Shown here in pieces: positions 5,200 through 63,642 of a stretch of DNA of 64,000 nt. Origin of the DNA: Dryococelus australis. Lineage: Eukaryota; Arthropoda; Insecta; Phasmatodea; Phasmatidae. Positions within the stretch are counted from its first letter, which is position 1, and every line of letters begins with the position of its first letter. The notes beneath the pieces were generated by a model, which searched no databases, had not been told where the DNA came from, and saw only the letters and a program-made list of their open reading frames with translations. Both the position numbers and the translations under genes were made by a program. The DNA lies in contig CM057005.1 of assembly GCA_029891345.1 (NCBI GenBank), forward strand, positions 65,605,760-65,669,759, in the 5' to 3' direction.

Positions 5200-6590
5200 G
5201 TTTTTCTACCGAGTCACAATACCGCCGTCGCCTATAAGATTGTTGTATATACCGGGCCGGGACAGACGTCTCAATAATAATTTATTATTTCGCCCGATGA
5301 GCCACCGAGACCATGCAAAAGGTCCGGGGCGAGTACAGCAGTGTGCCGTGGGATGCGCCACATGCTCAATTCTTAGATCTCACCGCTCTCCACTATGCCT
5401 TACGCACAAAGGATCTACGCACTGGGCTTGCACCTGCTAACCCCCTCTCCAGATGCCCTATGCCAGTAAAGGAAGGGATGGCAGAGAAGTATATAAGGAG
5501 ATGCATCCTGGCGTCCGGATAGTCAGTTCTGCTTCAGTTCTCGATTGCCTCTCCTGAGCTCTCATCACTCCAGCTATTGGTACCAAGGCTCAAACCTTTC
5601 CTTGTACTTCACCGATCACCTCGTGGGGCCAAAGATCCTCTCCAGCGCAACCAAAGGAAGAACCAATGGCGTCGACAGTTACACACTTAAACACGTTTGG
5701 TCCCTTGCAGACAACATGAGAGTAGAGCTTGCCCTAAGGTTTAACATTATGCCACACGCACCAGCAACTGCCTCTCCTAACAGTTTCGCATAGGGCACCT
5801 TCCCCTGTTTTAAGATAGGGGGTTTTACTTTCCGCCTAGCCCGTGTGGAATTAGGATATAGCACCTCTGCCATCTGTGTTTATTTTCTTAGGGCCAATAA
5901 ACACAGATCTTACCAGATCTCTTGACTTTCACTCCGAGCTCCTTCCTTGTGTCATATTGGAGCTGAAGGACTCAGCAGGAGACCTTGTTTTGCTATTCCG
6001 AACTTACACGCACAACACACCAGCACATCCTTGGAAGGCCACCATTCTCTGCCCCAACAGTAAACGGTGGAGCCACGACACTAGGATATCGTCCCCTGGA
6101 AGTTGGCTTGCTGGCTCAAACCCCCTACCTCATCGCTCACTTCATGGTGCCAAGGAGGGAATCTTCTTGGAGTTCGGGGAGACCAGTGATCACTGTACAC
6201 TAACCTCACAAGTTCCTTGCACCACCCACCTAGGTTGCGGAAGGATACCACCCTATAGTGCAGGAGGTACTGTTCAGCGTCAGGTTCACCAGCACACCAG
6301 AACTGCAGCCAAGTACCACACCTGCACATACCATTCCTCAGTCAAGTGCTACCTCGGTAGAGGGAACAGAGTCAGTACTGGCACGTACAAAACCCCCTTG
6401 CTGCCCTACTTCATCACAACCTAAACCTGCACCATGCCACATAAAGATTGTCGAGCCTGACTTTGTACCGAGTTGTCGACCCACCAGACCTGTGTTGTAC
6501 ACTGGATGGGCCCCTGTGCCCAGACCTGAATTAACCGCCCTGAGACATGACTCGCCTAGCGTCGAGTAAGTCACACAGGATAGTCACGCA
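5200..6590 (+). mobile_element. LTR-family copy 1 (LTR, hairpin, linker)
   Basis: First of four head-to-tail plus-strand copies of one GC-rich LTR-element family. The LTR-like part has a promoter TATA box (GTATATAAGG, about 5490). It is followed by the family hairpin (6042-6067) and by an internal region ending in a Pro-rich segment with the family motif PDFVPSCRPTRPVLYTG, near 6460-6510. The LTR left boundary is uncertain because the start block seen in other copies is not clear here. The copy is a fossil without recognisable pol. Placement in the family rests on the hairpin context and the linker motif. Confidence 0.6.
6042..6067 (+). other. family hairpin, copy 1 (weak)
   Basis: Flanking blocks AGGCCACC upstream and GGAGCCACGACACTAG downstream match the other copies. 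The stem here is short and interrupted (CTG with CAG, then TT with AA and CC with GG). Confidence 0.45.
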
Positions 6591-8101
6591 TCAGGGGGAA
6601 CACATTAGCGGACCTTCGCTCCAGCTTGCCATGGATGAGGGATGTGGGGAAGAGTGTGTGCCAACCCTACTAGAGTGAGACAGTGCTATGGCCGGCGTGC
6701 AGAGCATCACATGTTTCCCGAAGAACCCTAGCAAACAGAGCAAGCGCAATTACAGTGGTCAAGCAGCCCAGAATTAAGAGTCCCGCCTACAATTTCAAAA
6801 TTTTTTTTTCTTCGACTTTCTACACGCTGTGATCTTCCAGATGAGGGGGAACCTCTTCTCCCTTCCCTACTCCACCGTATTAGTCCGATGAGTTTTCATC
6901 GAAAAGGAGGGTGTGGCAGGAGGGGGTGCATTTATGAATGTCGCTTTCCTGTTATACTACGACTACGACTCATCAGCCTCACGTATTTATACGTAACCTG
7001 AGGAAGGGGTCAATCCCTGCAACATCTTTCACGAGTGTGCTTAGATCGCCAGTACCTTGGAGGGTGATTCTAAACATGTAAATATATGGTTGTGAAAGCC
7101 ATCAAGAAGCATGTCCCCCTCCCCCCCCCATGCTGAGAGCCTACAAGCCGACACGTGTGAAACCACGTCACACCTTTCGCGCCAGCCTTCCCAACATGTA
7201 ACGACTCACCAGGGCAAAACTATCATGAAGCACCCAATAATCTGTCACGAGCCACCACATCTGCCACGAAGCACCCCGCAACTGTCATGAGGCGCCCAGA
7301 ATACAAAAAACAGAGAGCAGGGGTTTTACCCCCGCCCCGACAGACCTCATTAGCTTGAGACCAAGAGCACTATATATGTACGTGCACACACGAGCTCGGG
7401 AGTTATTCTTTCTCCAGTAGCTCACTCTTAACACTTTGTGTGCTGGGACCTTTTACTGCTCAATAGTCTTTGGCAGCCACCAGAGGCTGCTACCATGGAC
7501 ATTGCCAGAGGCTCCTGCAGCCTTTACCAGAAGCTTGAGCTGCAGCCACCTGCAGAAAGCTACCAAAAGCTCGATTGTCGACAACCACCAACAGCTACCA
7601 GAAGGTCTTAGTCTTCAACCACTGCAGATTTACTACACCTTCCGCTGCTGCTGTCCCGTCTATACTTGCTGGTAGAGGCAACTCAACCCACTGCTCTTAA
7701 AGTAGGGGTCTCCTTTTTCTATTGTCTCTTCTAGATGTCTTTTGTATAGAGTAGATGCGACTGAGTAGATTTCATAGCCGTCAACGCCACTAGATACCTT
7801 GGGTAGTTTAGAAACAAGTCGCCTATGCCTGTATACCGTAGATTACTTACATATTCACTCTCTACTTGGTTAGGAGGTACCACACATCACAGTATTTATT
7901 ACGTCTAATAAATACAGATTGTTCATTTTTACCAAGGTATCTGTTCTAGAGGTATTTCCCTTGACCACTAGAAATAGGCAATATCTATTGTATGTTGTCA
8001 ACTGAGACAGGGTTTTGATATACCAGTACGAACCTTAGAGTAGGACTGCGGAGTCCCTTCAGGAATCCATATGTCTGATACATACACCATTTGACGGCCA
8101 C

Positions 8102-8129
8102 CCATTCTAGACCCCAAGGGACGGAACGG
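8102..8129 (+). other. family hairpin, copy 2
   Basis: GACGGCCACC precedes the stem and AGCCCTGACCACTA follows it. The stem pairs CC-x-TTC with GAA-C-GG and an inner CCC with GGG around a two-base loop. Confidence 0.55.
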
Positions 8130-8442
8130 TATAGCCCTGACCACTAACAACTCATCCAACAGGGGCAAGACATTCATCCCAAGTTGTATCCTATCCAGAG
8201 CGCCTACGCTGCCGGCGGGGATATTGGCTTGAGACTAAAGGCCTGACCCCTGTTGCGACCCTCACCCAATATTGGTAGGAAGGCGGCCCATACGGCTCAA
8301 TGCTCTAGGTTTGCATGCCAGTGGCAGGAGACTGATCAGCGCACCGAGCTCGTGCTGGCAACCACTATTGGAAATACACTTAGATAGGGAATTGTCTCAT
8401 GTTCATGACGATCAAGAAATATCTTTTGTCAACCAAACCTCT

Positions 8443-8724
8443 ATGCCTTGTGGTAAAAGTCACGGCTCACAGAGGAAGCAAAAGGCGGCCTATACTGTCG
8501 TCATGCAAGTGTGTATATTAGACCCATCTACTCCTAGTAGACAAGCAGAACGGGACAGTGCGCAGCTCGCCCACCATCTGGAGAGACCTTTATCCCCAGT
8601 ATTTTATTATATTTATTTCCCTGCGTACCTTCATATAGCCAGGGAATATAATTTCATAGTACATGGTCTGATACAGGGTACAGAGGTAAAGTACGGGGCA
8701 GCTAACCACAGGTTCTGGAGATAA
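8443..8724 (+). pseudogene. Gag N-terminal (FW-motif) domain fossil, copy 2
   Basis: The frame starts at ATGCC, in the position and context shared by other copies, with a basic N-terminus (SQRKQKAA). It runs through ERDSAQLAHHLERPLSP to the signature GAANHRFW. The same order is seen in at least six other copies: basic start, ERD segment, hydrophobic strand, then N-x-x-F/Y-W. I take it as the N-terminal part of this family's Gag. No known domain is recognised. The copy is decayed. Confidence 0.55.
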
Positions 8725-9226: not shown

Positions 9227-10330
9227 TACTGTTCACCGGCTGAGCCACCGAGACTTGCATCGAGGTCACCTAGTACTATGCATGCCGAGAGATGGCACCA
9301 CTAGTATGAATCGCAGAGACTGCATCAGCTGGAACCTCCGCCCGCCAGTGATGTCACACGCCCAGAGGAACTAACGCTGCCACCATCCTCCAGCTGATCA
9401 AGGGCAAGCCAGGAAAAGTATAAATACCAGGACACGTCCCTTGGAACGCCAGTCTGTCCTGTTCCTTCACTGCAATCCTGGTGCAGAAGAGACCATCGAC
9501 TCTGCCTGGTCTTCATGGCACTATTGGTGCTGAAGCCCAGGTCTAGATCTCCCTCTTCACCTCTGAAGATCATAGCCAGTTTAAGTCATTGAACATTTAA
9601 ACACTTTCCGGTCCCTTCAGGGCATACAGCGTAGCGTAGCATTAAAGTCAAATAATTTTCATAGCCACTTTGCCTACCTACCTCACTAGCTTAGAAACAG
9701 GTCGCCTTCACCTGTCAAGCATAGCAAGCTTCCATTAAGCTCGCATTGATAAGAATTAGTATAAACCATTTCGTTTATTTCCATGCAGAAATAAACATAA
9801 TTTTATCGCACTTAAGATATTATTTCCGTAGCAATAGAAACCTACCCTGCAAACATCAGGCCTGTCAAAGGACAGCAGACGACCGAGAATTTTATTTTAA
9901 CCACACTGTCAAACTAACCCATAGACACCCACACCTACATTGGACGGCCACCCTTTTCTATGCATCCAAGTGTATAGAACAGTAGAGCCCTGACACTACG
10001 TACTCATCGTCTAGGAGTTGGACTGTCAGTCTGGGGTCTGCTCTTTCCACTGCGCTTCTGGTGCTGGAAGGAATATTTCCTCAGGTCTAAGGGGGACTGA
10101 CACTTCAAGGGAACTCACCCACATATCAAGACCGTCAGCCAGAGTGTAACCTGACTCTCAGTGTCCACCACACTTCTGGTGCCAAATACTCAGATAGGGG
10201 ACTGCCTTGACTTGGCAAGTGCGGTACGAGGGCTGCTACTATATCTAAATACTGATGCATGCCAGCATATTGCGCTACTGAGAGGCGCACTCTACGGCCG
10301 ACTTTGCCCCATCTGAGCATGCCAAGCATG
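9227..10330 (+). mobile_element. LTR-family copy 3 (LTR type B, leader)
   Basis: Begins with the type B LTR start TGTACTGTTCACCGGCTGAGCC, also found near 58375 and 62025. It has a TATA box (GTATAAATACC, about 9420) and ends in the family hairpin (9953-9982). The leader downstream is similar to the one at 41000-41200 (CACTACGTACTC block). It fades into AT-rich sequence near 10330. No coding domain is recognised. Confidence 0.6.
9953..9982 (+). other. family hairpin, copy 3
   Basis: TTGGACGGCCACC leads into a stem in which TTCTAT pairs with ATAGAA, with flanking CT/AG and CA/TG pairs. AGAGCCCTGACACTA follows. Confidence 0.75.
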
Positions 10331-25021: not shown

Positions 25022-25622
25022 TATGCACAAAGAGTACCGTCACAAGACAGCCAAACACTATCAATATCAACACTCACATGTTTGACGCATGTCTTTTCAA
25101 CAATGGACATTTAACGACTTCCGCTCCATCCCTAGGTCAGCTGTTGCAGAGATAGAAGTTAAATTTGTCCCATTAACATGTGAGATTGTACTGTCTGCCT
25201 CGCAGATTGTTTTATTCACCACACCACCGTAACAATGCTTAAAGGCAACAACCTCTTTTACTCCCGGTAGATAGCTCTAGTAGTAATTATCGCTAGTCTT
25301 TTGTTTTGCATTCCCTTCCAGCCAGCCGGTTTATTGTAGCAGTCTTTCTTTCTAGCGCTCACCGCTCAGGAATCAACCCTTCTACATAGTTTCCAGCACA
25401 TGTTGTTTGGACACAACACCCCATTCACATTGCTTAAGCTACGCTTGCGATAGTTCCCTTACCAGAATAAAATATGGGTCAGACTTTAATTTGAGTACTT
25501 TTCCAGTAGACTTAGCACCCTTCTGTAGTTACTCTCACGTAACAGGTTTGCAGGTGATCCTGGGGAATTCTACTCAAATGAGCCAAACACTGTTTTCCCA
25601 CACACGCACTAATTTTGGCCGC

Positions 25623-25656
25623 CCTTCCCATCAAACCCTTGGTATTGATGGAAAGG
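25623..25656 (+). other. family hairpin, copy 5
   Basis: TTTTGGCCGCC leads into a 12-bp stem, CCTTCCCATCAA pairing with TTGATGGAAAGG with one mismatch. GAGCCACACAGG follows. Confidence 0.75.
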
Positions 25657-26199
25657 AGGAGCCACACAGGTACAATGTCCTGGAAACAGCATGTTAGCCT
25701 GGTGTTCGCCAGCCTCTCCTCCGGGGGCTTCACCAGGAGAGTCTGTTGTCCCCTAGGTTTAGAAGACTCCGACAGGGCCACACACCCGTGTGCATCTTTG
25801 AACAAGGTGAAGCCTGACTTCCCTCGTGTACCGCAGTCTCTGCCAGACTTGGCAATAGGGTGTCTGCCCATCCTCTTCCTACACGGGGTGCCACACGTAA
25901 AACTGCACAAGGAGCCTGCAGACGTGGTACAGTAGCAGTAGGTTAAAGTCCATTTCCTAATTCCCTACTCTCAGAGGAAAGGCCTTAAAGAGAAGGTGTT
26001 ACAGATACTCTCAGCATCTGGTAGAACACATGAGTTAAACAGATAGCTAGCTTAACACCTCAACCTCAGGTGCAAGTGCTACGTCAACTACAAGACCCAG
26101 TGGAAGTTCTGGTACCCAGAGACCTCTTCAACATGCCATAGAAGACTGGCCCAACAAAGTACCCTTGGTGGATCGCCGAGCATCTGAGATAACCCGACC

Positions 26200-26530
26200 A
26201 GCCACCAACACCAGTAGTTTGCTTATCTAGTACCCACACCTCCGCCAAAGCCTTAGGTCTCCGCTCATCACCACACTACACCAGTATCAGTCACACCTCA
26301 CTTAAGTACTGTTCCCAAACTCTGTCGTCCAGGTATATCCAAGGCAGTAGTGGCACCTAGACGCCATATTATGTTGCTCACTACCTGATTTCCTGCCCTG
26401 TCACGTAGCCACATGGCCAGTTTTGTACAAGGGAAGGCGCCAGCATCCAAAGAGAACTGAACCCCTGTCCACATATAAGCGCCTGGCTCAGAGTTTAGCC
26501 AAAAAGACTGGGACGTCCTCTGCAAAGACA
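26200..26530 (+). pseudogene. Pro-rich Gag linker fossil, copy 5
   Basis: Contains CRPGISKAVVAPRRHI followed by a counterpart of the PDFVPxRxAT segment of other copies (compare RYTRRVVPPRQNI at 12800). It is the link between the Gag N-terminal region and the zinc fingers downstream. Decayed. Confidence 0.5.
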
Positions 26531-26809
26531 GTATAGTGAGTATTTATTCCCAGTAGGTCACATGTCAAATAGTAGGAGCATTATCCGGATTCTTTTTCTG
26601 GCACGCAACATGGTGCCAACGACTATCAAAGTTGCACAAGACAGCGCAGACGAGCCAGCCACAGCCGCCACTCCACGTTACGGAGCCCAGAACAGTTAGA
26701 CTTTGGTGAGTCGCAGAAAAACACGCTGTGGTGCCCACACACACAGCTAGAATGTCGAACGAAACCCATAGATAGCCCGAGATTGGAGAGGTCAACTTGG
26801 CCGCAACTG

Positions 26810-27135: not shown

Positions 27136-27219
27136 GAGTAAAGACCCACCAACCCAGGACCAACCTCAACACGCAGCCACACAACGTGCATGGGAGAACC
27201 ACAACTTCCGGAGTTCGGT

Positions 27220-27610
27220 GCACTGCCACATGGAGACCCATGTACTTTCACTATTGAATGTGAGAGCGAATTTCATTTTCATGACATTCCCAAGAAGCAC
27301 TGGGTTTCTTGAGTTAATCTCAAGTTGAAGGGGGAGGCACTCGACTGGTGGAATGTATACTGCAAATTTATCACAGACTGACAGCAACTCAGCGCTCACA
27401 TGGTACAGCGTTTCGCTGGACAAGAAGTAGTTGCTCATTTAACGACGGAATTCTACAGCCTACTCCAAAAGCCTGGGGATGAGGTAGAGATCTTCGTATG
27501 CAGAAAAGTACATATGTATCACAGAATATTGATGCGTGCCTGTTACGTCTGGCTGACACGTATGTCTAAGATTTTTCTGCTAGACCAAAAGCGGGGTGGT
27601 TAAAACTGGT
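27220..27610 (+). pseudogene. Ty3-type Gag capsid fossil
   Basis: The segment LPEFG, then FHFHDIPKKHW, LKLKGEALDWW and LLQKPGDEVEIFVCRKVHMY follows the order of retrotransposon Gag capsid proteins of Ty3-like elements: L/IPxFxG start, then GEAxxWW, then QxxGExVExFVxRK. In living elements this protein forms the particle. It directly follows the zinc-finger region. The copy is broken and ends at the junction with the inverted neighbour element. Confidence 0.75.
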
Positions 27611-27729
27611 TCTACAGTACGACGTGCGAGGTGTTGGCTATTGCTTCCTTATTCTGTCATTTTGGTTGTTGTAGTTGACGAGGGTTTCACTCAATGGTGA
27701 CGAGCTTGGTCTACTCTGAAGCTGCAATT

Positions 27730-28025
27730 CCAGTTGTAGGCTTCACGGCTCCAGAAGTTGGGGTTTGCCCAGCCGTATCGGGCCTCTGTTCGGTTTAGTG
27801 ACCCTCTTACCACCGGGTGGCACGGAGGGTGAATGCGAATGCACGGTGGGAAGACGATTACTGTTACCAAAGCAGGTGCTACTGCTTGTCGTCTAAGTTG
27901 AGTGGCGGGGTCCCGTTCCCCCAGTCTGTCCTGCGTAGGATGAGGTAATACTATCGACTGTTTGATAGCAGCGTAAGCCAGGTATTGCTCTCTACGCCTC
28001 TTGCCACTCCTCACCTTGTAAAGCA
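27730..28025 (-). pseudogene. Gag N-terminal (FW-motif) domain fossil, copy 6
   Basis: One of the best kept copies. It has a basic start MLYKVRSGKRRREQYLAYA, then ERDPATQLRRQAVAPALV, a hydrophobic strand, CHPVVRGSLNRTEARYGWA and the signature NPNFWS. About 100 codons are open. The same landmarks recur in order at 8443, 52723, 56143 and 60923, and partially at 12600 and 41300. The fold and family are unknown to me. Conservation of protein landmarks across copies whose DNA has diverged suggests it was a working part of Gag. Confidence 0.65.
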
Positions 28026-28332
28026 TAGGGCACACCAGTCTGACAGCCTACACAGTGCACTTAAACAGGAACTGTAATTAAAGTGTAGCCCAATAGTGAC
28101 TTGCGGCACGAGCTCGATAGAAGTCCTCACTGATTCCCCAAGCATGCGGGCTGATCAGGGATGTGGAGCTGTGTGAGCCACCAAGCCTCTACTGGTTGTG
28201 CGTTCGCACCGGGTTGAGCGGCAACCCCCAGGCTAAGGTCACTTCAGCACTAACTTAGTGCTCAAAGTGAGAGATAACCTGAGCTTGTAGCCCCTCCCTG
28301 CACGAATGTATTTCTAGTGGTTGGGGCGTTCT

Positions 28333-28382
28333 TGTTTCTCCCCACCAGTACTGACTTAGTGCTCGGGGGTTGGGAAGAAACA
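28333..28382 (-). other. family hairpin, copy 6
   Basis: TAGACGGCTACC precedes a 12-bp stem TGTTTCTTCCCA/TGGGGAGAAACA (one G-U pair). The loop contains a smaller hairpin. CGCCCCAACCACTAG follows. Confidence 0.85.
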
Positions 28383-29204
28383 GGTAGCCGTCTAATGTGT
28401 ATGTCAGTACTCTGGGTTCCTGTTGGAAGTGCACATCGTATTCTGTTCCTGACCGCCACACAGACAAGTACCCTGTAAGTAAAAAGCAGAAGGGTAGTTA
28501 ACAATGGGTGTTTACTGGAGATGCAATTAACACGTGACCTTGTGCTATATCCTATCAGACCATGGAGAGCTGAAGGTAACTGCGGTTCCAGGTGTAGGCG
28601 ACCTGGTTCTAGTAAAACTGGGGAGTAACTGTTTCTAGATGAATGCAAAAGTATTTAAAGTGGCTAAGAAAAGGGTGTCTGGAGGAGAAAAAGTTAAGTT
28701 AAGCATACGTGTACGTGTTTGATGGATATTGATGCGTGATGAGTACCCACTGGGAACATACTCATAGCTTCCAAAGTTCCCGGAGGTCCCAGCACTGAAT
28801 TAGTGCTCTAGAATGTCACAAGAGAGTTTGCAAAGAATGAATTGCCCGAGCCCAGCAGCGTCTGGTCTTATATAGGTGAAGCTTGTAGGCTGCCATCGTG
28901 GGTTGCGGGGAGGTTGAGCATCCTGGCTGGTCAGTGTTTCTGCTTTGTGCCTCGTCGGCGGCGCTCGGCCTTGTCCGGTGGCAGGCGGCTTGTAAGCTCT
29001 CAGTGCGGGGTTGGGGGGCGTGCCTGCCAGGTCACGTAACCTTCAGGTGAAGAGAATCCGCTCATAAGTTCCTGTTGCCTGGTAGAGTAGGTGGCCGACA
29101 ATTCACGTAGAAAACTTTCTCTCCCCTTCTGCAGTGATGGAAGTAGGAACATTTAGCGATGAGTCGTAATCGTTGTTATTTAGTAAGTTGAGCAGCACAC
29201 GTCA

Positions 29205-35842: not shown

Positions 35843-36009
35843 AAGATCATATATTCATGCAATTTGCAAAAGGACAAAGTGTTTGGTTGCAACCCCGGTG
35901 CTGATCCTCAAGTGATAAGAAAATGAATCCTCCTCTGGGTTCCAGTACAACCCGAGAACATTTACAACAGGGCCAGATGAGAAGTCCAGATCTCTGGCGG
36001 GGTTTCCCG

Positions 36010-36950
36010 ATGAGTTACAGGAATATCATCGAGTAGCTGAGGCTGATTGCTGAACTACTTCGGAGTTCGAACCCACCCTGATGAAGAAGTTCAAATATAT
36101 GGGATTTCAAAGTGTGCGCCATCTCCATGGACATTGCTCCTGTAACAATATCGTTAACAAAAATGTGATTGTGAAGGACATTTGCAGCAAGAGGATACTG
36201 GGCCCCTTCATCCAAGGCCAACTGGTGTAGTTTTCGAATAGTCAGGAATGGAAAGGGTGATAGACCATAGGTCATGGTATTCAACTGAAAAACTGTGAGC
36301 AGAAGGGATGGATTGTCACGCCAGAGAATGAGTTATTATGGTTGGTCAGACTCATGGATTAAAATTTGCCAATACATTTGCTTAATATCACAGGAGAATA
36401 TTGCACTATACAACCTGAATCTCAAAATAACATCACAGATTTCATTTTGATATTTGGGTCCTGGAAGCAGAACATCGTTGAGTGAGACCCCAGTGGTGGT
36501 TTTGGCACTACCATCGCATACCACCCTCAATTTGGTGGTTGTGATAGACATATTTAGAACACCATGATGTGGAATGAAACATTCTGCTGTCTCCTTAGCA
36601 TCAGTAGGCTGGGTGGAGGGAACATACATCTTCATGTGGCCTGACTCAGAATAGTCTGTCATGAAATCTGTGTACATGGTCTTCATTTCAGGATGTAATG
36701 AAAGTTTCTTTTCTAAAGACCAAAACCTATGTTCAACATTCACATACAATTCCCCAAGAGGTTGAGCCTGAAGTTTGAAAGGAAAATTAACCTTGTATCT
36801 CCCCATGTCATCCCACGAATGGGTGTCCTCAAAATGTTTCTCGCAGTAGTTAGCATCTGGCGGATTTGCATTAACACATGGTGGTTCTTCAACTTCCCAA
36901 AACCGCTCTAGAGTAAAATGTAATGGATCCTCCATGCCAATTAACATTGA
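36010..36950 (-). pseudogene. BEL/Pao reverse transcriptase fossil
   Basis: Begins with FWEVEEPP, continues with YVPSTQ, ECFIPHHGV, KLRVVCDGSAKTTTGVSLND, and IFSCDIKQMYWQILIH (first catalytic Asp region). It resumes with MTYGLSPFPFLTIRKLHQLA and HIFVNDIVTGA, the second catalytic region. The order is typical of BEL/Pao RT. Broken in a few places. Confidence 0.9.
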
Positions 36951-37319
36951 GACTACGTCCTGATCGGAATCAGTGCATGACTCTAGGTACTCACCCAGCA
37001 GTATCTATCCGAACAGTGACTCCAGCACTACAGGCTTGTGCTGTCTTAACTACAAACTGCCACTCATACACACACATGCATAAACATCAGCCCCTAACAA
37101 CACATCAATTAGAGCAGGTTTGTCAAAGTGGGGGTCTGCCAGAGGAAGGGAACCCAATTGGATTCAGACACGCTGATCTAAAGAAGATAATGGCAGATTG
37201 CTAGTGATCTTTGACACAACAAAGAGTGAGTGATTGGAGGTACACTGAGGCTCCCTGGAGTATTGTATCTTACAACTAATCATTCCTTTCAAATTTTCAG
37301 CACCTTGAGAGAGGCCAAA

Positions 37320-37920
37320 CACCCTTTCACATGCATAATGCAGAGGCAGAGTACCTATGCAGAGGCTTCAGATATGAAAGATGCCTGAGCTGCATTATCA
37401 AGCAGACAGCACATGACATGATGTTTTTTATCAGCACCATACACTTTGACCAGAGCTGTAGACAATAAAATAGATTTACGATCGTGGGCTGATACACATG
37501 CAAATGTACTGATTGGACCCCCAGTGCTGGCAGAACCTTTGTTTCAAAACCTTGAAGCTGCATTAGACTTCCCATAGATGGAGCAAAGTATGATGTTATT
37601 GTTTACACCGATAATATGTGTGAGACGAGGCGCAATCAGCTATCGCATGGGATCCTCCAAGAAATTTGAAACAGAGTTTTCTTTTGCAAACCATTGACTG
37701 CCTGTCAGTGGATGATGCAATGACTAACTGTGGGCATTTGTAAAAAGTGTGAGAGGAGTTCTGAAAAACTGGGCAAGGCTTAGGTACTTTAGGTTGAGAA
37801 TCTGTAACGAGGACCGACCATGGTTGAGAGATTGTGTGACCTGATTTAGTTAGGGATGTTTTCCGATGCACTTGACCAGCCCCAACTTTGCTCACCCCAT
37901 CATTTGCACAATCCAATTTT
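37320..37920 (-). pseudogene. BEL/Pao gag end and protease region fossil
   Basis: A Cys/His knuckle-like stretch (HTFYKCPQL, then CFKFLGGSHAIADC) near 37780-37640 is the nucleocapsid part. Near 37460-37340 a segment with ALVKVYGADKKHHVMCCLLD followed by AAQASF has the place and look of the aspartic protease active-site region of this class. Confidence 0.75.
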
Positions 37921-37929
37921 GCTACCCTT

Positions 37930-38567
37930 GATCACAGAAAATCAATAAGCTCTGAAACAGTAGGAAATGAATCAGTATTTTCTGTGCGTGCGTTTTCAAA
38001 CTTTGTTTTGATACCTACAACTAATTTGTGTAGCAAGAATGTGGCAAACACTAGATTATTCTGTATTATGTAACAATCTATCCCTTCGAGGGCTCGAGCA
38101 TTTTCACTGAACATGTTGATAAAGTTTCAAATGGATTGGTGGTTTGTGGAGTCGACACCAGGCAAATCGATAATCCTATTAATATACAAGGTTGTGAGTT
38201 TTCTCACATTCTGGTATTGGGATTTAAGAAGTTCCCAAGCTACTAAGTAATTTTCAGCAGTAACAGGCAGATTTTTGACCAACTGTAAAGCCTCCCCCTT
38301 GAGACATCCCAACAAGTACTGGAATTTTTCTATGTCGACCAATGCTTGACTGTTGTGGATTGTAGCTTGATACAGTTGAAAAAACATTGGCCACTCCTCC
38401 CACTGCCCTGAGAAAGAGGGCAAAATAATTTCTGGAAGTCTAACATTTGCTGACGTGGAGGCAAGATTTCTAGTTGACGAAGCTGGCACAGCACGAATGG
38501 TCAAGAATGAGGTTATGTTGCATTGGACGTCTGACAACATAGCAAAGAAAGGTTCGTGCTTCAACAT
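37930..38567 (-). pseudogene. BEL/Pao gag fossil
   Basis: Contains RLPEIILPSFSGQWEEWPMF, then VDIEKFQYLLGCLKGEALQL and VKNLPVTAENYLVAWELL, the recognised BEL/Pao Gag (DUF1759-type) signature. The rest continues to about 37930. In a living element this forms the particle. Confidence 0.9.
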
Positions 38568-39267
38568 TATCCGGCAGGGGATCCTTTTGTAAAAATTTGT
38601 TGCACAAGGAATCTACTGCGGACTCAATGGCATTTAGCTGTGCACAAGTGCATTCACTTCATGAATGGAATTTATCGTAACTTCTGCCTTAACAAGAGCT
38701 TGTACTATTTTGTTAATGTGTTTCAGCTTGCTCTCCTGAAACTTGAACGTCACCAAAAATTTTTGGAATCCTACGTCTACGACCTACCAACTGATCCCCT
38801 CCCCCTCCCAAAAAAAAAAAATTAATGCAATATGGGAATACAATGAAAACCATGTCAAAAGCTAGGTTAGGATGCCTTGCATACCATCTCGGCGATAAAA
38901 AGCTGATTTACTCCACAAAACATGCTACAAACGGGATGATGCAATAAGACAAAAAAAAACTACTCGCCCACATGTTGAGCTCAGACTGGAAACAGAACAT
39001 TACACTATAACACAGACAAATTACGTGGTTTCCCTGGAATTTCCATGAAAACTGCAACACTTCTAACAAATGTACTGGACAGCGATGAAGAAAATACTGG
39101 TTCCTTCTTGGGGTGTTTCTGTAATGAGTGGATTCAGAGCGGCGGCGATAGTTTCTGCACACGTGTGAGATAAAGTTTAAATTACGCAGAACAAGTAAAG
39201 CGACCGAAAAAGTATCACATTCACTGTACGGAATAAGCACGGGTACACATTCGGCCCGGAAGACCTA
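38568..39267 (-). other. BEL leader between 5' LTR and gag
   Basis: About 700 bp with no domain recognised, next to the 5' LTR end. An A-rich tract lies near 38809-38822. Confidence 0.5.
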
Positions 39268-39459
39268 AATGTTTAGTATAGACAAGAAATAAAACACAAA
39301 TATGCATTTATATTGCCGGACACGCCTGTGGACGAACTTACCACGTCGCCATCTTGAATCACACTGGCGTCGGGAACTACTTGCAGCAACGCCATTGCTG
39401 TAGAAAAAAGTAGGTCTTCATTGAAAGATATATAAGTTCTGATTGCACAATATGCAACA
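39268..39459 (-). repeat. BEL 5' LTR
   Basis: 192 bp. On the minus strand it starts TGTTGCATATTGTGC and ends CTAAACA. It includes CAAGATGGCGACGTGGTAAG, which is both an initiator/YY1-like context and a donor-like GGTAAG. Confidence 0.85.
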
Positions 39460-40740: not shown

Positions 40741-40976
40741 AATAAACGGTAATGTCTTTTTATTTCCTTTATGCTGTAACAAAGTTTTTTTCAACTGTTT
40801 ATTTCTGTCACAGGAATAAATAGTTGTTAAACCAGCTCAAGGGTATCTTTCCTGTAGTGTAATTCCTCTCCCAGTGGACTTCAGGCCCGTCTAAGGGATA
40901 GTAGGTGACTGAGGAATCTACTCAGAAATGCAATACATCCATTGAGTACCCATACACACATTGGACAGCCACATTG

Positions 40977-40994
40977 CGTGCACCACAGTGTACA
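40977..40994 (+). other. family hairpin, copy 7
   Basis: TTGGACAGCCAC precedes the stem GTGCAC/GTGTAC (one G-U) with loop CACA. AGAGCCCCGACACTAGGTACTC follows. Confidence 0.65.
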
Positions 40995-41239
40995 GAACGG
41001 CAGAGCCCCGACACTAGGTACTCAGTCTCTTGAGGTCAGCTTGCCATCTCAGAGGCTACTCTTTCCACCACGTTCCTTGCGCCAGAGTTAATGTTTCCTG
41101 AACTGGGGGAGACTGCTCCTCCTGAGACACTCACCCACATGCTGGGACTGTCTGCTGGCGAGACCTGACTCACAGTGTTCACCGAGGGAACAAGCCCGCC
41201 CAGGCACTGCGTCACCTTCAGAGACCATCTAACACAGAG

Positions 41240-46094: not shown

Positions 46095-47200
46095 TGATGC
46101 GTGCTGTTTTATCATACTACTATAAATGATTACGACTCATCTCACATCACACCAAGTATATCAACTTCAACCCACGTGAGTGTCGAACCCTGCCAACCTG
46201 TACACGGAAATTGCGAGCCACCACAATCCTGGAGGGAGCCCGAACATGTGGATTTCAAGGTTGCGCAAGCCAGCAGACACATTGTCCTCCCCTCCCCCAT
46301 GCTGAAAGCGTACAAGCCGTCAGCCGCCATTTCTTGCAGTTCCTCGAGCTCGCTCCACCACTTCTTGTGCTGGGGTGTCCAACGACCTCCAAGTCTTCAG
46401 CAGCCTACCAGAGGCTGCTCCTATTGTTGACAACAGTCTTCAGTGATGCCAATAGCTACCACTTACCAGAAGCTTCTTCTGTTAGTCTTCAACATTAACA
46501 CTCCCTGCTACTAGAGCAGTGGAACTTTAACTTCTTTGTCTCGTCTAGACACCCCATGAATAGTTAGCAAAGTTAAGTATTTCTATTTAGCAGTCAACTA
46601 TTTATTTTCCCGCTTTGTTCTTTTAGCCATGAGTATTATTCATAGAGTAATATTTACTACGCCTGCTAGGAATGATACACATTGTGTACTGTCGACAGAG
46701 TCTGGGTGTTTTATTACGAACTAGACTATGACTGGGGACACACTTCCGGAATCCACCATTCCTATATATACACCATTCAACGGCCACCTGTTCTAAACCT
46801 CTGGGAATAGAACAGCAGAGTCACAACCACTAGAAACTCGCCAATCAGGGAGAGACAGTGCACTTGGGTTGTATCCCTACCGGAGCACCTAGATGCTGGC
46901 GGGGGTATTTTCCCGAGTGTTACGGCCTGGCCTTGGTTGCAATACCACACCCAGTTGTAGCAGGAAGGCGACCCATACGGCTCAACACCCCCCAGTGGTG
47001 GGGGAGTCTCCTGGAGCACCGAGCTCGTGCCGGTAGCTGCTACTGGAAGTACACTAATCTAGGGAATTGTTTCATGTACGTGGTGCACGACTTGTATTGT
47101 TCAGCAGCGTACCACATTCTATGCCTTTCAAGGTGAGGCACGGCTCAAGGAGAGAAGAGCAAAGGACAGCTCAGCGTTTTTGGGATTCCTTATAGTATAG
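46095..47200 (+). mobile_element. LTR-family copy 8 (LTR type A, hairpin, leader)
   Basis: The LTR starts at 46095 (TGATGCGTGC) with GATTACGACTCATC at 46128. TTTGTCTCGTCTAGACACC is near 46540. The hairpin (46788-46815) and a leader follow; the leader is similar to 8160-8440 and to 56143-56460 (ATCCCTACCGGAGCACCTAG). The Gag start ATGCCTTTCAAGGTGAGGC is at 47121. The copy stops near 47200, where a different fragment begins. Decayed. Confidence 0.7.
46788..46815 (+). other. family hairpin, copy 8
   Basis: AACGGCCACC precedes a perfect 8-bp stem CTGTTCTA/TAGAACAG. AGAGTCACAACCACTAGAAACTC follows. Confidence 0.85.
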
Positions 47201-51513: not shown

Positions 51514-52375
51514 TGACGTGTGCCGCTTCTACACCTATTATAATACGACTCCGACTCATCGCCTAGGAGTACTGCTTCCATCTCAACAGATGTGAGCAAC
51601 ACGTTGCCTATCCCAACAGGCAATGGGAACTTATGTGTTTTTCCTTCGCACCTGGAAGGCACGCATCCCGGCAGGCATCCCCCCCCCCCCTCCTTGAGCA
51701 TGACGCCGACAAGCTGCCCAGACCTCGGGTACGGCCGAGCAGACCCGACGAGGAACGAAGCTAGAACTGCTGACGAGATAATTCTCACGCCACCCAGGGC
51801 CGGAGGAAGTCACGCCTCCCCCAGACCCTGCGCCTGCAGCTTACAAGCTTCCACTATATAAGTCCAGATGCTGCCGGCCTCGGGAGTCATTCTTTTGCAT
51901 CTCTTGCACCGCCCACAGCACTCTTAGTGCTCAGGAGCTCTAGAGAAGTTCAAAGCCTACAAGTACGCCTTCGTGGCAACCGACTACATATGCAGACGAC
52001 CAGTCAATCCGGCGACATACCAACATGGAACATTCTTCTTTTAACTTCCTTTGTCTCCTCTAGACACCTATAATTAGTAGTTTAACTGTAACTATTATTT
52101 TTTATCTAGAATCAGCTTTTCCTGTTTATTCAGAACCTGGTCACCTACACTTGGAACCACGGAGTTACCTTCAGTTATCCTCGACTTGGTAGGAGGTAGC
52201 ACAGGCCACGTGTCTATTGAACTTTCAATAAACACACTTTGCTTTCTACTTCGCTACTTTTATTTCCAGGGTAGTTATCTGTACTCACAGTTGGAGGTAG
52301 ATTATGCTGCGCACTGCCAACGGAATCCGGGGAAGTTATTAAACCGAACTAAGTCACACCCATTAGACGGCTACC

Positions 52376-52427
52376 TGTTTCTTCCCAGCAAACACACAGC
52401 AATGTTAGTGCTCGTGGGGAAGAAACA
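52376..52427 (+). other. family hairpin, copy 9
   Basis: TTAGACGGCTACC precedes a perfect 11-bp stem TGTTTCTTCCC/GGGAAGAAACA. CGCCCCAACCACTAGTAAC follows. Confidence 0.88.
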
Positions 52428-52722
52428 ATAACGCCCCAACCACTAGTAACACCTTCACATCAGGAGACATGACACACTCGGGTTGCTTTGCACCACTCGC
52501 ACTATTAGTTTGCAGTGACGGCGACCTGCAGTGCTGCTGGGTATTCTGGGTGGACGCACAACCAGTAGAGGCATGGCGCGACTCCAGCTCAACGTCCCTG
52601 ATCACTCTGCCTACGTGGGGGATCAGTGGGGACTCTTATCGAGCCGGCCGACAAGTCACTATTGGGGTACACTATTAGTATTTCCCTTTCAGTGCATTGC
52701 GTGATTTATAGAACTGTTACCC

Positions 52723-53030
52723 TATGCCTCATGAGAGAAGGAGTGGCATGAGACGTAGAAAGCAACACCTGGCTCACCCTGCTGTCTGGCCGAGGATAGT
52801 ATTACCCTATCCTACGTAGGATAGACAGGCGGAACGGGTTCATGTCGCCGAACTCAGATGTCAAGCAGTTGCACCTGCACAGGCAATATTAATTGAGTTT
52901 CCACAGTGTGTCTGTACCAGCTACATGTATCACCCTGTTGTGTACAGCTTGTTAACCGGAGCGGAAGTTCACCTAGGTTGGGACGTGATTTTCTGGACAA
53001 AATAAGCACGACGTTGGAACATTCGTGCAG
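52723..53030 (+). pseudogene. Gag N-terminal (FW-motif) domain fossil, copy 9
   Basis: The frame start ATGCCTCATGAGAGAAGG lies in the shared context and codes for a basic N-terminus. Further on HPVVYSLLTGAEVHLGWDVI precedes FW. The landmarks match copy 6 in order and spacing. Fossil. Confidence 0.55.
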
Positions 53031-53100
53031 GCATTCACCCCGCTTAAGCCTAAACTTAGCTCAACTACCGAACTAGAGGTGAGAGTGTATCAGAACTAGC

Positions 53101-53500
53101 CGACACTCCTCGCCTCATCCCCGCTACCTAATTCGCTTTTGATCTAGCGAGTAAAATATGTAACTACCGTATCCAGTCAGTCTAATTGGACATGTGTCAC
53201 TGCATTGATGATTTTAGAATGGAATTGTTGTGTAGTATGTTTCTTAACGTGAATATTTTAATATGCCTTAAGTTGTAAAAATTTGTTAAAATAAAACAAA
53301 AAACTTTGTACTGAATAGGGTTTTGTCAAGACTAAAACAATAGCTCACTGTAACAATATTTTCATTAATGTGGAATTTGTTAAAGTAGTGCTTTAATGTA
53401 CATAAATTAAATATGGCATTCCACTTAATTACTGCAAAACAAGCATATTTAAGTCTTATGTTGAAATGGACAAGAGAAGATAAAACCATTTATGACTTAC
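53101..53500 (-). other. intron, no feature recognised
   Basis: AT-rich intron sequence just downstream of a Tudor exon on the minus strand. Confidence 0.5.
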
Positions 53501-53909: not shown

Positions 53910-54165
53910 TGGAGTGGAGTGATTTTAATAGCTCTTAGCATCGAGGTCTTGAGAGCTGATGAAGGTGAAACAAGGTGAGTATGGAGCAGCATGGACAAAC
54001 AAGGGTGGGGGAAATAGAGCTCTCCAAGAAAACCTGCCAACAAGCGGTATCGTTTGGCACAATTCCCACATGTGAAAACCCAGGAGCGGCCTCGCCGGGA
54101 ATCGAACCCAGTTTGCGTATGTGGGAGACAAGTAGCCGAACAACTACACCACCGCTGCATCCTAA
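53910..54165 (-). mobile_element. tRNA-derived SINE, copy 2
   Basis: On the minus strand the head CGGTGGTGTAGTTGTTCGGC fits an A box. An exact B box GGTTCGATTCC follows about 40 bases on. The body matches copy 1 at 48093-48363. Confidence 0.85.
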
Positions 54166-54830: not shown

Positions 54831-55500
54831 GATTTCATTTGGTACGAAAACACTTAATTACGCATTTTCCGGAGGACCATGCGCATTAAGAATTTTACTG
54901 ATCAGCCATCTTGTCAGACTAACCAACAAACTCTGTCACAGGCAGTACACAAGTCAAGTTCACTCATATCACGAATATCAAAATAAAACTAAGAAGTCTA
55001 AATATACAGCCCACCAAGTACGAATTGAGGTCACAACCACAAACCATATTTACAAGAAACAGAAAGAAAAAGATAAAAAATGTTACGCATATTACATTAC
55101 ACCTGTTGAATATGAAGCCTGAGTAAATCAGTCCACTCACCAAATTTTTAGAAAAGGCTTTGACATCAAGCATAGGATATTAGTTAATTTATGTAGAAAT
55201 ATAAACAGTTCACATGGATCATTGTTAAACAAAACTACAGTATTGTATGGTAGTGAACTAGTAAAAAGGGATACAATATAGCATAAAAATGTTGAAAATT
55301 CCTCAGAATCAATCAAATATCAGCAGTATTTTGCAGCTATTCTTAGTCACGTTTAGGAAAGTCACATTTGTGGTACAATATTCAACTAATACTGCACAAA
55401 AAAAAAGTACTTATCAAGTAAATTAGATTGGTTATATTACCCTATACTAATATCTAGTATATCATTCCACAAAATATTATAAAGCTGAAGTGTGTCCGAT
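54831..55500. other. intron, no feature recognised
   Basis: AT-rich. An open stretch continuing to 55122 is Lys-rich and low in complexity and is not supported as a gene. Confidence 0.45.
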
Positions 55501-55799
55501 TAGCTAAGGCTGGATCACAGTCATGTGGCTTTGGTTGCACTTTGGTCGGTTGTGCGTACGGGTTGGCTTATGCATATTTACAGCTGGATATAGCGGTCAG
55601 CCATGTGGCCTTACGGGTTGGTACGAAGTTCTCGACTTTACAAGTCACGAGTCCCTTTGATTGGTCTGGCTTGAGACTCGTTTTGGAGATAATCGTAGTT
55701 GACGATGGGTGGGATGTGCTAAGAGTAGGTGCCTTGTCGGTTTGCAGGCGAGGGGTAGCTGGATATAGCTGATTAAGTCGCTCATCTTCGGCTCAGACG

Positions 55800-56143
55800 G
55801 TAGCGAGGGCACGACATGACACAACACAGAACTCGCCGTTCCATTCCTCGGATGCCCTGCTCCAGTAGTTACTGTTGGAGATGCCTAGCTGGTTCTCTGT
55901 CTCATTCAGTAACTCTCTTACCACTGGATGACAGGTCGGATGCGTACGCAGTGGTGCTGATGGGAAAGCAGCTGGATTAATTACAGTCGGCGTCGGTGGT
56001 GCCAGTGACCGGAGTAAGGCGGTACAATCTCGTTCGGCTCGTCAACTAGCTGTGAGTGGGACGAGACCAGCCAGTTGTCTGACAGCAAGGCGTGCAACTC
56101 TTTGCTCCTCCATCCTGGTGCCATGCCTCACCTTAAATGGCAT
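55800..56143 (-). pseudogene. Gag N-terminal (FW-motif) domain fossil, copy 10
   Basis: The start ATGCCATTTAAGGTGAGG codes for a basic N-terminus. Then RAERDCTALLRSLAPP, HPTCHPVVRELLNETENQLG and ISNSNYWSRASEEWNG follow. Here Tyr replaces Phe in the signature, as expected for a conserved aromatic position. Confidence 0.65.
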
Positions 56144-56457
56144 ACAGCGAGTTTTACTACTGAGAACCTCGAAAGGGGTACCACGGATGCGGATAGCCCT
56201 AAATTAGAGTTACTTGGCAACAGTCTTGCCAACGCCAGCTCCGGTGATTCAGAAGATCCACCACTGTTGCAGGCTGATCCGAAGCGTTGGAGTAGTGTGG
56301 GTTGCCAAGACTATTACTGGATGTGCGATCCCAACCAAGACCAGGCCGCAGTACCTAAGCAAATACCCCCGCCAGCACCCAGGTGCTCCGGTAGGGATAC
56401 AACTCAGATGTACCGTCTCTCCCTGATTGAGAAGTGTTGCTAGTGGTCATGACTCCT

Positions 56458-56503
56458 CTATTCTATTCCTCTAGTAGCTGTATACTTGATAGGAATAAAA
56501 TAG
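56458..56503 (-). other. family hairpin, copy 10
   Basis: TAGATGGCCATC precedes a 13-bp stem CTATTTTATTCCT/AGGAATAGAATAG (one U-G pair). GAGTCATGACCACTAGCAAC follows. Confidence 0.88.
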
Positions 56504-57694
56504 ATGGCCATCTAATGGGTGTGTATTCAACTTGGAGCCGCCTGAAAGGGGAGTCTCCAGTTGTAGCTAATTTCGTAATATGAACAATTTCACGTTTTCG
56601 GTCGGCGGTACTCAGCTCTAGGTCCTCCTAGTAGTTGAATAAAAATTACTCTATGAATGAGACTCAAGGGTAAGAGAAATAAAGCTGTGTTTATTAAAAA
56701 CTTATTAAACACGGTGACACATGCTCTCCTGCCAGGCAGAACGGTGGTTGGAAGTAATTCTACGGTAGCCAGGTGTAGGTGACCTGGTCCTACGCTAAGT
56801 GGGGAAGTTACGTGAAAAACTGTTGAAGATTACTTAAATACAAACTTATCTCTAACTGGCATGTCTGTAGGAGACAAAGAAAGAATTACGTGTGGACTGT
56901 ATTAGTACGGAAAGCTTCTGGTAGCTATTGGCGTTGCTGGAGCATCTGGTAGCGGAGCTGCAGAGCTCTTGCAGCAACATCAAGGATGGCAGCCTCTGGT
57001 GGCTGATGAAGACTGTTAGGTTGTTGGTGACAGTCTCTGGGACTGTTGAAGGTCTTACAGTAGTCTAGACTCCAGCACCCAGGTGCTCGGAGAAGACTGC
57101 AGGAACAACTTGCGAGGTCCGCCATGCACTGCCTTATATAGCGAGCAGCGCGTGTTGTGGCGGCCGTGGGGGAGGGTGTGTGACGTCCCTCAGGTGCGAG
57201 GCTGGAGTGGGGGTAGCACCCTCTGGTCATCGCTCAGTCTTTGTGTATCCTCGGTGGCGCTCGTGCATGGCCCGAGGTGGCTGATGACTTGTAGCGCGGG
57301 GGAGGGGAGGTGATGCACCACTGTCTTTCGCAACTCCTTGTATCCACATGTTCGACTGCCTTCCAGGATTGTAGCAGACCGTTACTTCCGTGTACGAAAT
57401 GGCACGGAGTTTGACTCTCACATATGTAGAAGTAGTACATTAGGGTTGCAGTGAGATGAGTCTTAATCGTTTGTAGTTAATTGGTAAAAGCGGCATGCGT
57501 CAAAGCTGAGGTTACAATTTGTAATTTCTTAATTTATTTCTGAATTTTCTACTGTATCGTTTTACCAAAACTCTTCTATATGTTAGCAAACCTATTTCCA
57601 CTTAGTCTGATGTCCTATTGCTGTTCTATTTTTAGCCAGTCTGTTTACAACTATTTTAAAAGTGCATGCACAAAGACTGAAAATACGGACATAC

Positions 57695-60412: not shown

Positions 60413-60599
60413 TGATCCTAGCTTGTACTTGACGCGTGCCCGATTAGACTGACTTGGCACATTAGTAGGGGATTTTGACCGCTGGATCAAAAGTGGATTA
60501 ACTGGGTTTAGACAGCTGGGGTGAGACGAGGGGTGTTTCCGGAACTTACTCACTCCTGCTCCTGGATGTTGTAGTCGAGGTAGGTATGGCTTTAGGCGG

Positions 60600-60923
60600 G
60601 ACGAATTTGGTCGATGCCAGAACGGATGTTCCACAGACAAATTTCTTTAGACCAGAAGATGAGATTGTCCCAGCCTAGGCGCACTTCAGTTCTGGTCAGG
60701 AGTCCACTGACAACCGGGCGACATGTGGTATGGATGCGGACACACGGTGGAAAGTCAATTACTAGAACCAGAGCAGGCGCGACTGCTTGTCGTCTCAGTT
60801 CGGTGCATGGTCCCGTTCCATTTGTCTATCCTGTGTAGAATGGGGTAATGCTATCCTTGGCCTGAGAGTGGGGTGAGTCAGGTGTTGTTCCTTGCATTTT
60901 CTACCACTCCTCTCATAAGGTAT
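60600..60923 (-). pseudogene. Gag N-terminal (FW-motif) domain fossil, copy 11
   Basis: Shares with copy 6 the segments around CRPVVSGLLTRTEVRLGWDN and FWSKEICLWNIR (about 60720-60620). Decayed fossil. Confidence 0.55.
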
Positions 60924-61241
60924 ACGGTAACAGTTCTCTATCTTATGTCGTGCACCTTAGACACAAAGAATAACAGTGTAACCCAAATAGTGACTTGCCG
61001 GCTCGAGCTCGATAAGAGTCCCCACTGATCCCCCACCGTAGGTGGGCTGATCAGGGCCATGGAGCCATGTGGACCGTCAAGCCTCTACTGGTTGTGCATT
61101 CGCACTAAGATGCCCGGCAACACTACAGGCCACAGTCACCGCGCACTATTCAGTGTGGATGGTGAGAAGCAACCTGAGTCTGTTATGCCTCCTGGTGTGA
61201 AGGTGTTGCTAGTGATTGTGACATCACTTTCATACCTAAAA

Positions 61242-61290
61242 TTTCTTACCCACGAGCACTAAAAGTGCTGATGTGTTACTGAGAAGAAAA
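61242..61290 (-). other. family hairpin, copy 11
   Basis: The stem TTTCTT/AAGAAA (extended by weaker pairs) encloses a loop with an inner GCACT/AGTGC hairpin, as in copies 6 and 9. The upstream block is diverged (TAGACTGCTACC). Confidence 0.65.
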
Positions 61291-63163
61291 AGGTAGCAGT
61301 CTATATGTATGTCATAATTCGGTTTAATAAAATTCCCAGTTTCTGTCAACAGTGCACAGCGTAGTATACCTTTAACTGTGGATACAAATAAATACCCTGG
61401 AAATAAAAGCAGAAAGATAGAGAGCAATGTGTGTTTATAGAAAGTTCAATAACATGTGACCTGTGCTATCTCCTACCAAGTCGAGGATAGCTGAAGGTAA
61501 CTGCTTGGTTCCAGGTATAGGTGACCTGGTTCTAAGTAAGAGGGAAAAAGCTGGTTCTAGATGAATATAAATGAGTTAAAGTTAAATTGCTAATAAAAGG
61601 TGCCTAGAGGAGACAAAATGAAGTTAAAGAAAATGTTTGTGTTCGTATGTTGTTGGGTTGACTGATCGTCGACGTATGTACTAAGTAGCAGCAGGGGCAT
61701 ATTTGTAAGATAACAAACTTCTCCGAAGATCCAAAGCACTAGTAATGCAGTGGAAGGTTGTTAGAAATGCGAAAGAATGATTTCTGAGGCCGGCAGCACC
61801 CGGACTTATATAGTGGAAGTTTACAGGCTGCTGGCGCAGGGTGTGGGGGAGGCGTAACGTCCTCCGGACCTGTAGGCAACATGTTGCTCACGTCTGTAGA
61901 GATGGAAGAGGTAGTCTAGGTGATGAGTCGTAATCGTATTGGAATAGATGTGTAAGTGGCACGCGTCATACTGTTCACCCGAAATTCCAAGAAGCCGTCA
62001 CGTAAACACTTCCTCCCAAGATTGTACTGTTGGCTGAGCCGCCGCTCCCGCCAACCAGGCCAAGCTAGTTCCAGAGAGCAGCGAGTGAGGGTAGCACCCA
62101 ACCAACTCTAGCAGACACCCGAAGATAAGGGATGATAGCGCCACGTAAGCATCCTTGAATTTTCAACACCTGTGGCCGAGGCTAACGCCACCCGTGCCCC
62201 CGAGCACCTATTTGAGATAAGTATAAAAGATCTGAAATGACCAGAAAACTTAAGTCTCAGATCCTCTGCCACCCTGCTCAGGGCCAGAGGCAGCCACCAC
62301 CAGGACTCGCTCACCTATAGTCTATGCTCCTCCACCGCTTGCAAGGGCTGGAGGCAGCCTTCGGAGTGTGCCACCACTGGTACGTCTGCAGATTCCACCA
62401 TTTGCAAGGGCTGGGATCTCTACCAGTAGAAGACATTGCAGATCAGAAGCCTCAACACTTCTTCAGCAGCCATTGACCCTCCACTGCTTCTGGGAGAATG
62501 GAACCTCCAGAAGCTCCCGAAGATGTCGCTCTGCCTTCCTTACCACCCCCTGGTGGTAAAACTCTTTCGTAACAGGTCACGTAGTGCATGTCCTTCAGAA
62601 CCTCCACCCTACCCATTGGACATGGTAATACTGACGTTACCCTTCTGGTAATTGTCAATCCTCGCTTATTCCTTCAGAACAACCCCCTAAGTTAGTCAGG
62701 AAATAGTTGTTAAGTACTACTTTCTCTAACACCAATTAATGGTTTTCCCCACTTAGATTAATTTACCAGGCTACCTTCACCTGAATTGTCTAGGGAACTT
62801 CCGTATCAACGGTTTTATTGTAGGAGGTAACACAGTGCCACCATGTTTTATAACTCACGTAATAAAATACATGAAACTTACTTCAATCACTCACCAGCCA
62901 CCAGTCGAGCCAATAGGAAACCTTTCGCGACACGCAGTAGCCAATCAGAAGCGAGGCCCATTCTCAGAGCCATGCTCAGCCAATCAGAGAATAGTTAGGA
63001 TGATATAAAATGAACCGCCACGCTCTGTATGCTGAAGTTCTTTGTGTAAGTAAAACGCCATAGATTTCCTAAATAGTTTAAATCACTAAAAGTGAAGCCA
63101 GCGACACAACCAGGCAACAAGCCAGATACCCACACACAGTATTAAGAGGCCACACGAGCTCTG

Positions 63164-63182
63164 CCAAAATTGTAGAATTTGG
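63164..63182 (+). other. family hairpin, copy 12
   Basis: GAGGCCACACGAGC precedes a stem CCAAAATT/AATTTGG with a one-base bulge and a GTAG loop. GGAGCCCAAAGCACTAGAAACTC follows. Confidence 0.75.
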
Positions 63183-63642
63183 TGGAGCCCAAAGCACTAG
63201 AAACTCCTCCGCCAGGCAAATCTGTACATCAAAGTGTTCCATTCTCCAACACCACTCTCCTGCAGGGCCGGAAAGGGGCTGGAATCACCAATGACTAACT
63301 GACCTCCTGCGGATACCATACCTGGGTATTCCGGTCAGGAATTAACTTGAGTTATCCTTTTTCTGTCCACCGCTCTCCTCCAGGGCCGGACAAAAGGAAC
63401 ACAGGGTGCCGTCTCTCTTTACAAGAATTACCATGCCTTACAACCGGAAGGGAGGTATATGGAGAAGTTTGAATCGGGCAGCTGCTGCACTTGAAACTAG
63501 ACAGCATTGTGACCTAAATCAGAAGTTGCACTTTGCACTTCCACCCAAGAGCTTCACTTCTAATCACTGCAGTAACCGTTATTTCCACCCCTAATTAAGC
63601 TTGAAGACCCTCCTCATCCCATCCCAGAACCCTTTGTAAGGA

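Follow-up and report, generated by a model that had tools for sequence, protein, structure and literature searches.

A hairpin with co-varying arms in diverged LTR-like units of Dryococelus australis

Introduction

Short inverted ends, a promoter and AATAAA are common motifs of LTRs, as set out in the excerpt cited here of PMC3601003. The repeated units described below, from Dryococelus australis, share with Metaviridae (Ty3/Gypsy) LTRs the TG...CA short inverted ends, an AT-rich promoter and AATAAA (PMC3601003, in excerpt). They differ in that their ends are TGACGYGTGCC, whereas the general form given for Metaviridae is TGTTRNR, and a hairpin of the kind reported here, H3, is absent from the excerpt of that description (PMC3601003). 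In retroviral LTRs, stem-loops of the R-U5 region keep their structure while their sequence drifts, as the cited part of PMC2664473 describes. The D. australis hairpins are like these orthoretroviral stem-loops (lentiviral TAR, the AATAAA stem-loop, the MLV R loop and the HML stem-loop) in lying between promoter and LTR end and in that one of them holds AATAAA, and here too structure is kept while sequence is not (PMC2664473, in excerpt). Their setting differs, in that the LTR measures 1.5–2.0 kb, its 3′ end is 0.8–1.0 kb away from the hairpins and an ORF comes after them, and no sequence relation between the units and the orthoretroviral R-U5 stem-loops was found. The LTR of MMTV carries the sag gene in U3 and is alike in having a protein gene inside the LTR; here the ORF comes after promoter and AATAAA, and sag is set beside it by position alone.

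Results

Eleven copies in one window

The window analysed is a stretch of 64,000 nucleotides (assembly GCA_029891345.1, contig CM057005.1, positions 65,605,760 to 65,669,759), and all coordinates refer to it. A first-pass annotation had listed 11 copies of a flanked hairpin, and all 11 are present at the positions (used here as their names) and on the strands it gave. We read these places on those strands and aligned them over 900 bases each (fewer at the window ends); a profile built from the alignment recovers the same 11 in the window, the weakest at E 2e-55, with the next matches at E of at least 6. ARAGORN calls no tRNA in the window and none of the copies is matched by an Rfam family, the sole window match up to E 5 being one of E 4.6 at 43412, results that rule out a tRNA or a known RNA family as the identity of H3. 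The annotation knew of no described element with these flanks. The lack of an Rfam match agrees with this, but stem-loops of this kind have been described for retroviral R-U5 (PMC2664473, in excerpt). Matches listed by a full-text literature search for the motif letters were all irrelevant. In viral contigs, a scan with the hairpin pattern gave six stretches, none of them matched by the LTR profile, and a scan with the LTR-end pattern gave none; in genome contigs, a pattern scan gave eight stretches, all bacterial and again without a match to the profile. A protein scan of the viral contigs with the LTR ORF found no relative.

Table 1. Features of the LTR-like units and their positions in the window
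Feature	Position	Strand	Remarks
Unit 52376 (LTR-like)	51514..53199	+	TGACGTGTGCC...GGACATGTGTCA; exact duplication CTGC
Unit 61290	60430..61968	-	TGACGCGTGCC...GGCACGCGTCA; exact duplication AGTA; empty site
Unit 56503	55486..57502	-	exact duplication GCTT
Unit 28382	27530..29204	-	duplication matches at 3/4 bases only
Unit 25623	25083..26610	+	followed at 26611 by TGGTGCCAACGAC, primer-binding-site-like, TGG-initial
TATA box, unit 52376	51855..51862	+	TATATAAG
H0, palindromic hairpin	51917..51931	+	AGCACTCTTAGTGCT; 63 nt past TATA box
H1, short hairpin	52136..52154	+	pairing survey, swap test; weakest of four
H2	52210..52235	+	pairing survey, swap test; 3′ arm holds AATAAA (52227-52232)
H3 with both flanks, copy 52376	52366..52446	+	GGC 52369-52371 pairs with GCC 52433-52435; tail ACCACTAG 52439-52446
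H4, long hairpin	52468..52539	+	pairing survey, swap test
H3, copy 61290	61209-61301	-	
H3, copy 56503	56440-56512	-	
H3, copy 28382	28314-28392	-	
H3, copy 25623	25616-25670	+	
H3 region, copy 6042	6034..6084	+	folding not better than shuffles
H3 region, copy 8102	8093..8146	+	folding not better than shuffles
H3, copy 9953	9943..9999	+	
H3 region, copy 40977	40964..41017	+	folding not better than shuffles
H3, copy 46788	46779..46833	+	
H3 region, copy 63164	63145..63200	+	alone not significant
AGCACY..RGTGCT sites	28246-28262, 28791-28807, 51917-51931, 56374-56387, 57074-57087, 61255-61269		
ORF, unit 52376	52724..53005	+	one in-frame stop
ORF, unit 56503	56143 down to 55793	-	one stop
ORF, unit 28382	27692..28026	-	intact, 111 aa
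ORF, copy 8102	8443..8721	+	intact, 93 aa

The arms of H3 change together

To each copy's own H3 arms, cut by hand between the flanks, we applied a swap test that compares their duplex energy with that of arms exchanged between copies. Own arms average -12.0 kcal/mol and swapped arms -7.7 kcal/mol (permutation p 3e-5, or 3 in 100,000); since own arms pair better than swapped ones, the arms co-vary. The result holds over arm lengths of 14–22 (p 1e-5 to 2e-5) and of 10 and 12 (p 0.002), and when between one and three copies are left out, in eight different ways (p 3e-5 to 6.5e-4). Reversing the 3′ arm, a control that keeps composition, gives p 0.11–0.23, except for 0.018 at arm length 10. A border-free scan of 213 centres finds six with p < 0.01, H3 among them (p 0.0037, 10 copies). 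Taken singly against dinucleotide shuffles, 6/11 H3 cores fold at p ≤0.02, and the other five (6042, 8102, 40977, 61290 and 63164) fold no better than the shuffles. The first-pass claim that each stem pairs with its own 3′ arm is borne out in that complementarity goes with the copy, though not uniformly across copies. The flank helix GGC/GCC pairs in six of the 11 copies at a probability above 0.3. An all-pairs covariation test in the manner of R-scape yields no significant pair (best E 1.1 of 343,206 pairs) and is powerless with 11 sequences. H3 is a real stem-loop whose arms change together.

The stems had also been called unrelated in sequence between copies, which is an overstatement: eight of the 11 have a lower stem in common, changed partly by double substitutions. 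These eight were placed by hand in a gap-free register over 8 bp (6042, 40977 and 63164 did not fit and were excluded), with pairing in 55 of the 64 cells. T-A stands at position 4 in all eight copies and at position 5 in seven, and at positions 2, 3, 6, 7 and 8 there are Watson-Crick pairs in which both bases have changed. Part of the changes at positions 6–8 could be a single inserted base pair in the group formed by 28382, 52376 and 61290; the double changes at positions 2, 3 and 7 (copies 8102, 25623 and 56503) are independent of that group. These results support compensatory change and, with it, selection on a stem-loop.

H3 lies within the unit

H3 had been placed just 3′ of the LTR. It sits instead within the LTR-like unit, 823–1018 nt before the 3′ end as measured in the five copies in which that end is best supported. 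Sequence common to the copies spans about -820 to +860 around H3. Copy 61290 splits a repeat, an unbroken relative of which (a related empty site) lies upstream of copy 56503; this relative gives the borders of unit 61290, and the ends of unit 61290 in turn give those of units 52376 and 56503. TG...CA ends with short inverted repeats are found in 5 of the 11 copies, the units listed in Table 1, and are not clear in the remaining six; the inverted ends are perfect in unit 61290. Target-site duplications of 4 bp are exact in three units; none was found at copies 46788 and 8102, and copies 6042, 9953, 40977 and 63164 are without clear ends. The unit ends exclude a place for H3 beside the primer-binding site, so that the earlier argument from a position just past the LTR was wrong.

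Most simply, the units are LTRs; those three whose target duplications are exact have the look of solo LTRs. The same ends could be read as those of a DNA transposon, bounded by terminal inverted repeats of 11 bp and target duplications of 4 bp, the hairpins belonging to its one gene. Perfect inversion in unit 61290, the exact duplications, the ORF inside and the absence of paired copies from the window all suit such an element, and the TG...CA form of the ends, the TATA box, the AATAAA upstream of the ORF and the TGG-initial site directly after unit 25623 do not. The ORF is also, at about 111 aa, short for a transposase, and we regard a transposon as quite unlikely. Within the window there are no two direct copies of the unit around gag-pol, and no coding region of the element, such as the reverse transcriptase or integrase of a Ty3/Gypsy clade, was recognised. 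After unit 25623, positions 26611-27529 hold the TGG-initial site and a stretch that is gag-like by eye only, with two in-frame stops, cut short by the nested unit 28382; its stop-free pieces have no Pfam match, and it has no second copy in the window.

Other elements are present in the window. Two of the five ORFs at 4–39 kb compared with Pfam match Pao-type families (DUF1759 and Peptidase_A17), the only Pfam matches, at 35–39 kb, and by themselves mark the DNA as eukaryotic and probably animal; pieces of a Pao-type retroelement with these two domains cover 35372-38609 (minus strand). Direct similar stretches at 33404-33590 and 39270-39458 (84%) may be the LTRs of that element. A Cys-rich ORF of 281 aa at 4012-4857 (minus strand), reminiscent of a Maverick/Polinton-type DNA polymerase, has no Pfam match and no relative in the protein scan of viral contigs. 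At 54080-54160 on the minus strand, a B-box-like GGTTCGATTCC noted by eye perhaps marks a tRNA-derived SINE, where ARAGORN calls no tRNA.

Promoter, AATAAA and neighbouring hairpins

TATA boxes are found in six copies, 492–637 nt upstream of H3, and less canonical TATA-like sequences in copies 8102 and 63164. A seventh TATA match (46788, at -668) lies near the 5′ end of its unit and is probably not the promoter. AATAAA occurs 147–304 nt upstream of H3, at the place of H2, in 8/11 copies, and is missing from that place in 46788, 28382 and 61290. Being downstream of AATAAA, H3 would fall in U5 provided that this signal is the one in use. In four copies AATAAA is present at a place more downstream (9953 at +555, 40977 at +771, 46788 and 63164 at +795), and the hairpins could lie in R rather than U5 were that signal the working one.

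H1, H2, H4 and a fifth hairpin, H5, were picked from a pairing survey of these same copies, a choice whose bias the swap test removes only in part; with that limit, swap and control p are 0.004 and 0.09 for H1, 6e-4 and 0.17 for H2, and 2e-5 and 0.59 for H4. H5 is not supported (swap p 0.35). The arms of H2, H3 and H4 co-vary, those of H1 weakly, and within a unit whose ends are defined there are at least three, probably four, co-varying hairpins, H3 among them. The order is TATA box, AATAAA hairpin, H3, H4, ORF, and an AATAAA between promoter and ORF is the order of an LTR. The window holds six instances of a palindromic hairpin, AGCACY..RGTGCT, where shuffles hold 0.17, every one of them within a unit: three near the RNA start (28382, 52376 and 56503), two at H4 tips (28382 and 56503) and one at the H3 tip of 61290. 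To the eye, the tail ACCACTAG resembles a complement of the D-arm of some tRNAs, a likeness on which none of the readings given here draws.

The first-pass annotation had concluded that selection acts on RNA structure. Compensatory change in a stem-loop agrees with this, but strand tests do not show RNA over DNA. G-U pairs number 71 and A-C pairs 77 over H1–H4, in alignments that score both alike and extend into loops, so there is no sense-strand excess of G-U; nor do sense and antisense strands differ in folding relative to shuffles (p 0.42, 0.62, 0.55 and 0.12 for H1–H4), H4 leaning to the sense strand without significance. This lack of strand asymmetry would suit selection on a DNA palindrome, as a cruciform or as a site for a protein binding both halves. 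Variable stem sequence and loop length are unlike a binding site, however, the adjoining H2 carries an RNA signal, AATAAA, and the lean of H4, such as it is, goes the other way; we hold a DNA palindrome to be quite unlikely. That RNA is the selected form is likely from position, because H3 lies downstream of a TATA box and adjoins the hairpin that holds AATAAA.

An ORF inside the LTR-like unit

Downstream of the hairpins is an ORF with an arginine-rich start. Over +320 to +720, the DNA score is ≤17, roughly what shuffles give, in 49 of the 55 copy pairs, and 7 of these 49 reach a protein score ≥57 in one frame, a cut-off chosen after a first protein comparison of the pairs had been seen. The protein score is 113 for 28382-8102 (second frame 40, shuffled maximum 44) and 123 for 56503-8102 (second frame 68, shuffled maximum 47). 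The hairpin zone shows the reverse: in each of two 400-base stretches, 24/55 pairs are alike as DNA and none of the remaining 31 reaches a protein score of 57. Protein similarity begins at the ATG (E 2e-17 for 28382-56503, 3e-9 for 56503-8102), and among seven copies in which the start was located by eye, six have ATG and 61290, whose ORF is frameshifted, has ATA. Beyond the start, no clear relation is seen in the 63164 frame or in most of the 46788 frame. The codon-position signal is mild (0.39, 0.35 and 0.52 for 28382-56503; 0.33, 0.33 and 0.40 for 28382-52376). By sequence comparison, the LTR ORF is conserved as a protein, and in several pairs the likeness of its DNA is down to roughly chance level. 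It matches no Pfam family, and its structure model is unusable (mean pLDDT 35). A literature search on ORFs in LTRs found no paper, which does not prove that there is none.

The hairpins stand between the promoter and this conserved ORF, and they might accordingly be the regulatory 5′ UTR of the LTR's small protein, acting in translation or in the choice of poly(A) site rather than in packaging. The leaders hold roughly half the ATGs of their mononucleotide shuffles (45 vs 89 in seven copies, leader start and end being partly assumed), as such a UTR would favour. Each leader nevertheless retains 4–10 ATGs, and retroviral packaging signals occupy the same place, so that position does not separate the two readings. 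We think a 5′ UTR role unlikely, if less so than a transposon.

Discussion

We favour, with confidence slightly above even, the reading that the 11 copies represent diverged LTRs from one degenerate kind of LTR retroelement, at a guess Ty3/Gypsy-like, and that H3 belongs to a structured transcribed leader (R-U5). Judged by the order of the parts, H3 together with H0, H1, H2 and H4 would then give the element's genomic RNA a folded 5′ leader, in which H2 may mask the 5′ poly(A) signal. The recognised parts of H3 would be the conserved basal helix, the internal loop and the tail, with the variable upper stem as a spacer. By analogy with retroviral leaders, H3 and H4 might take part in packaging the genomic RNA or in its dimerisation, and such a role is our likeliest guess for H3. 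A more elaborate scheme would make the LTR a self-contained regulatory cassette, like Tat/TAR or Rev/RRE, in which the ORF protein, through its arginine-rich N-terminus, binds the AGCACY..RGTGCT stem-loops at the RNA start and at the tips of H3 and H4, the cassette being spread by solo LTRs; we consider this a long shot.

Eleven diverged copies in one window amount to a natural covariation experiment, which reveals a structured LTR leader from nothing but genome sequence. A structured LTR leader is of an already known kind; a protein gene beside the leader is unexpected. That this LTR also holds an ORF conserved at the protein level points to LTRs as possible carriers of small protein genes that have structured leaders.
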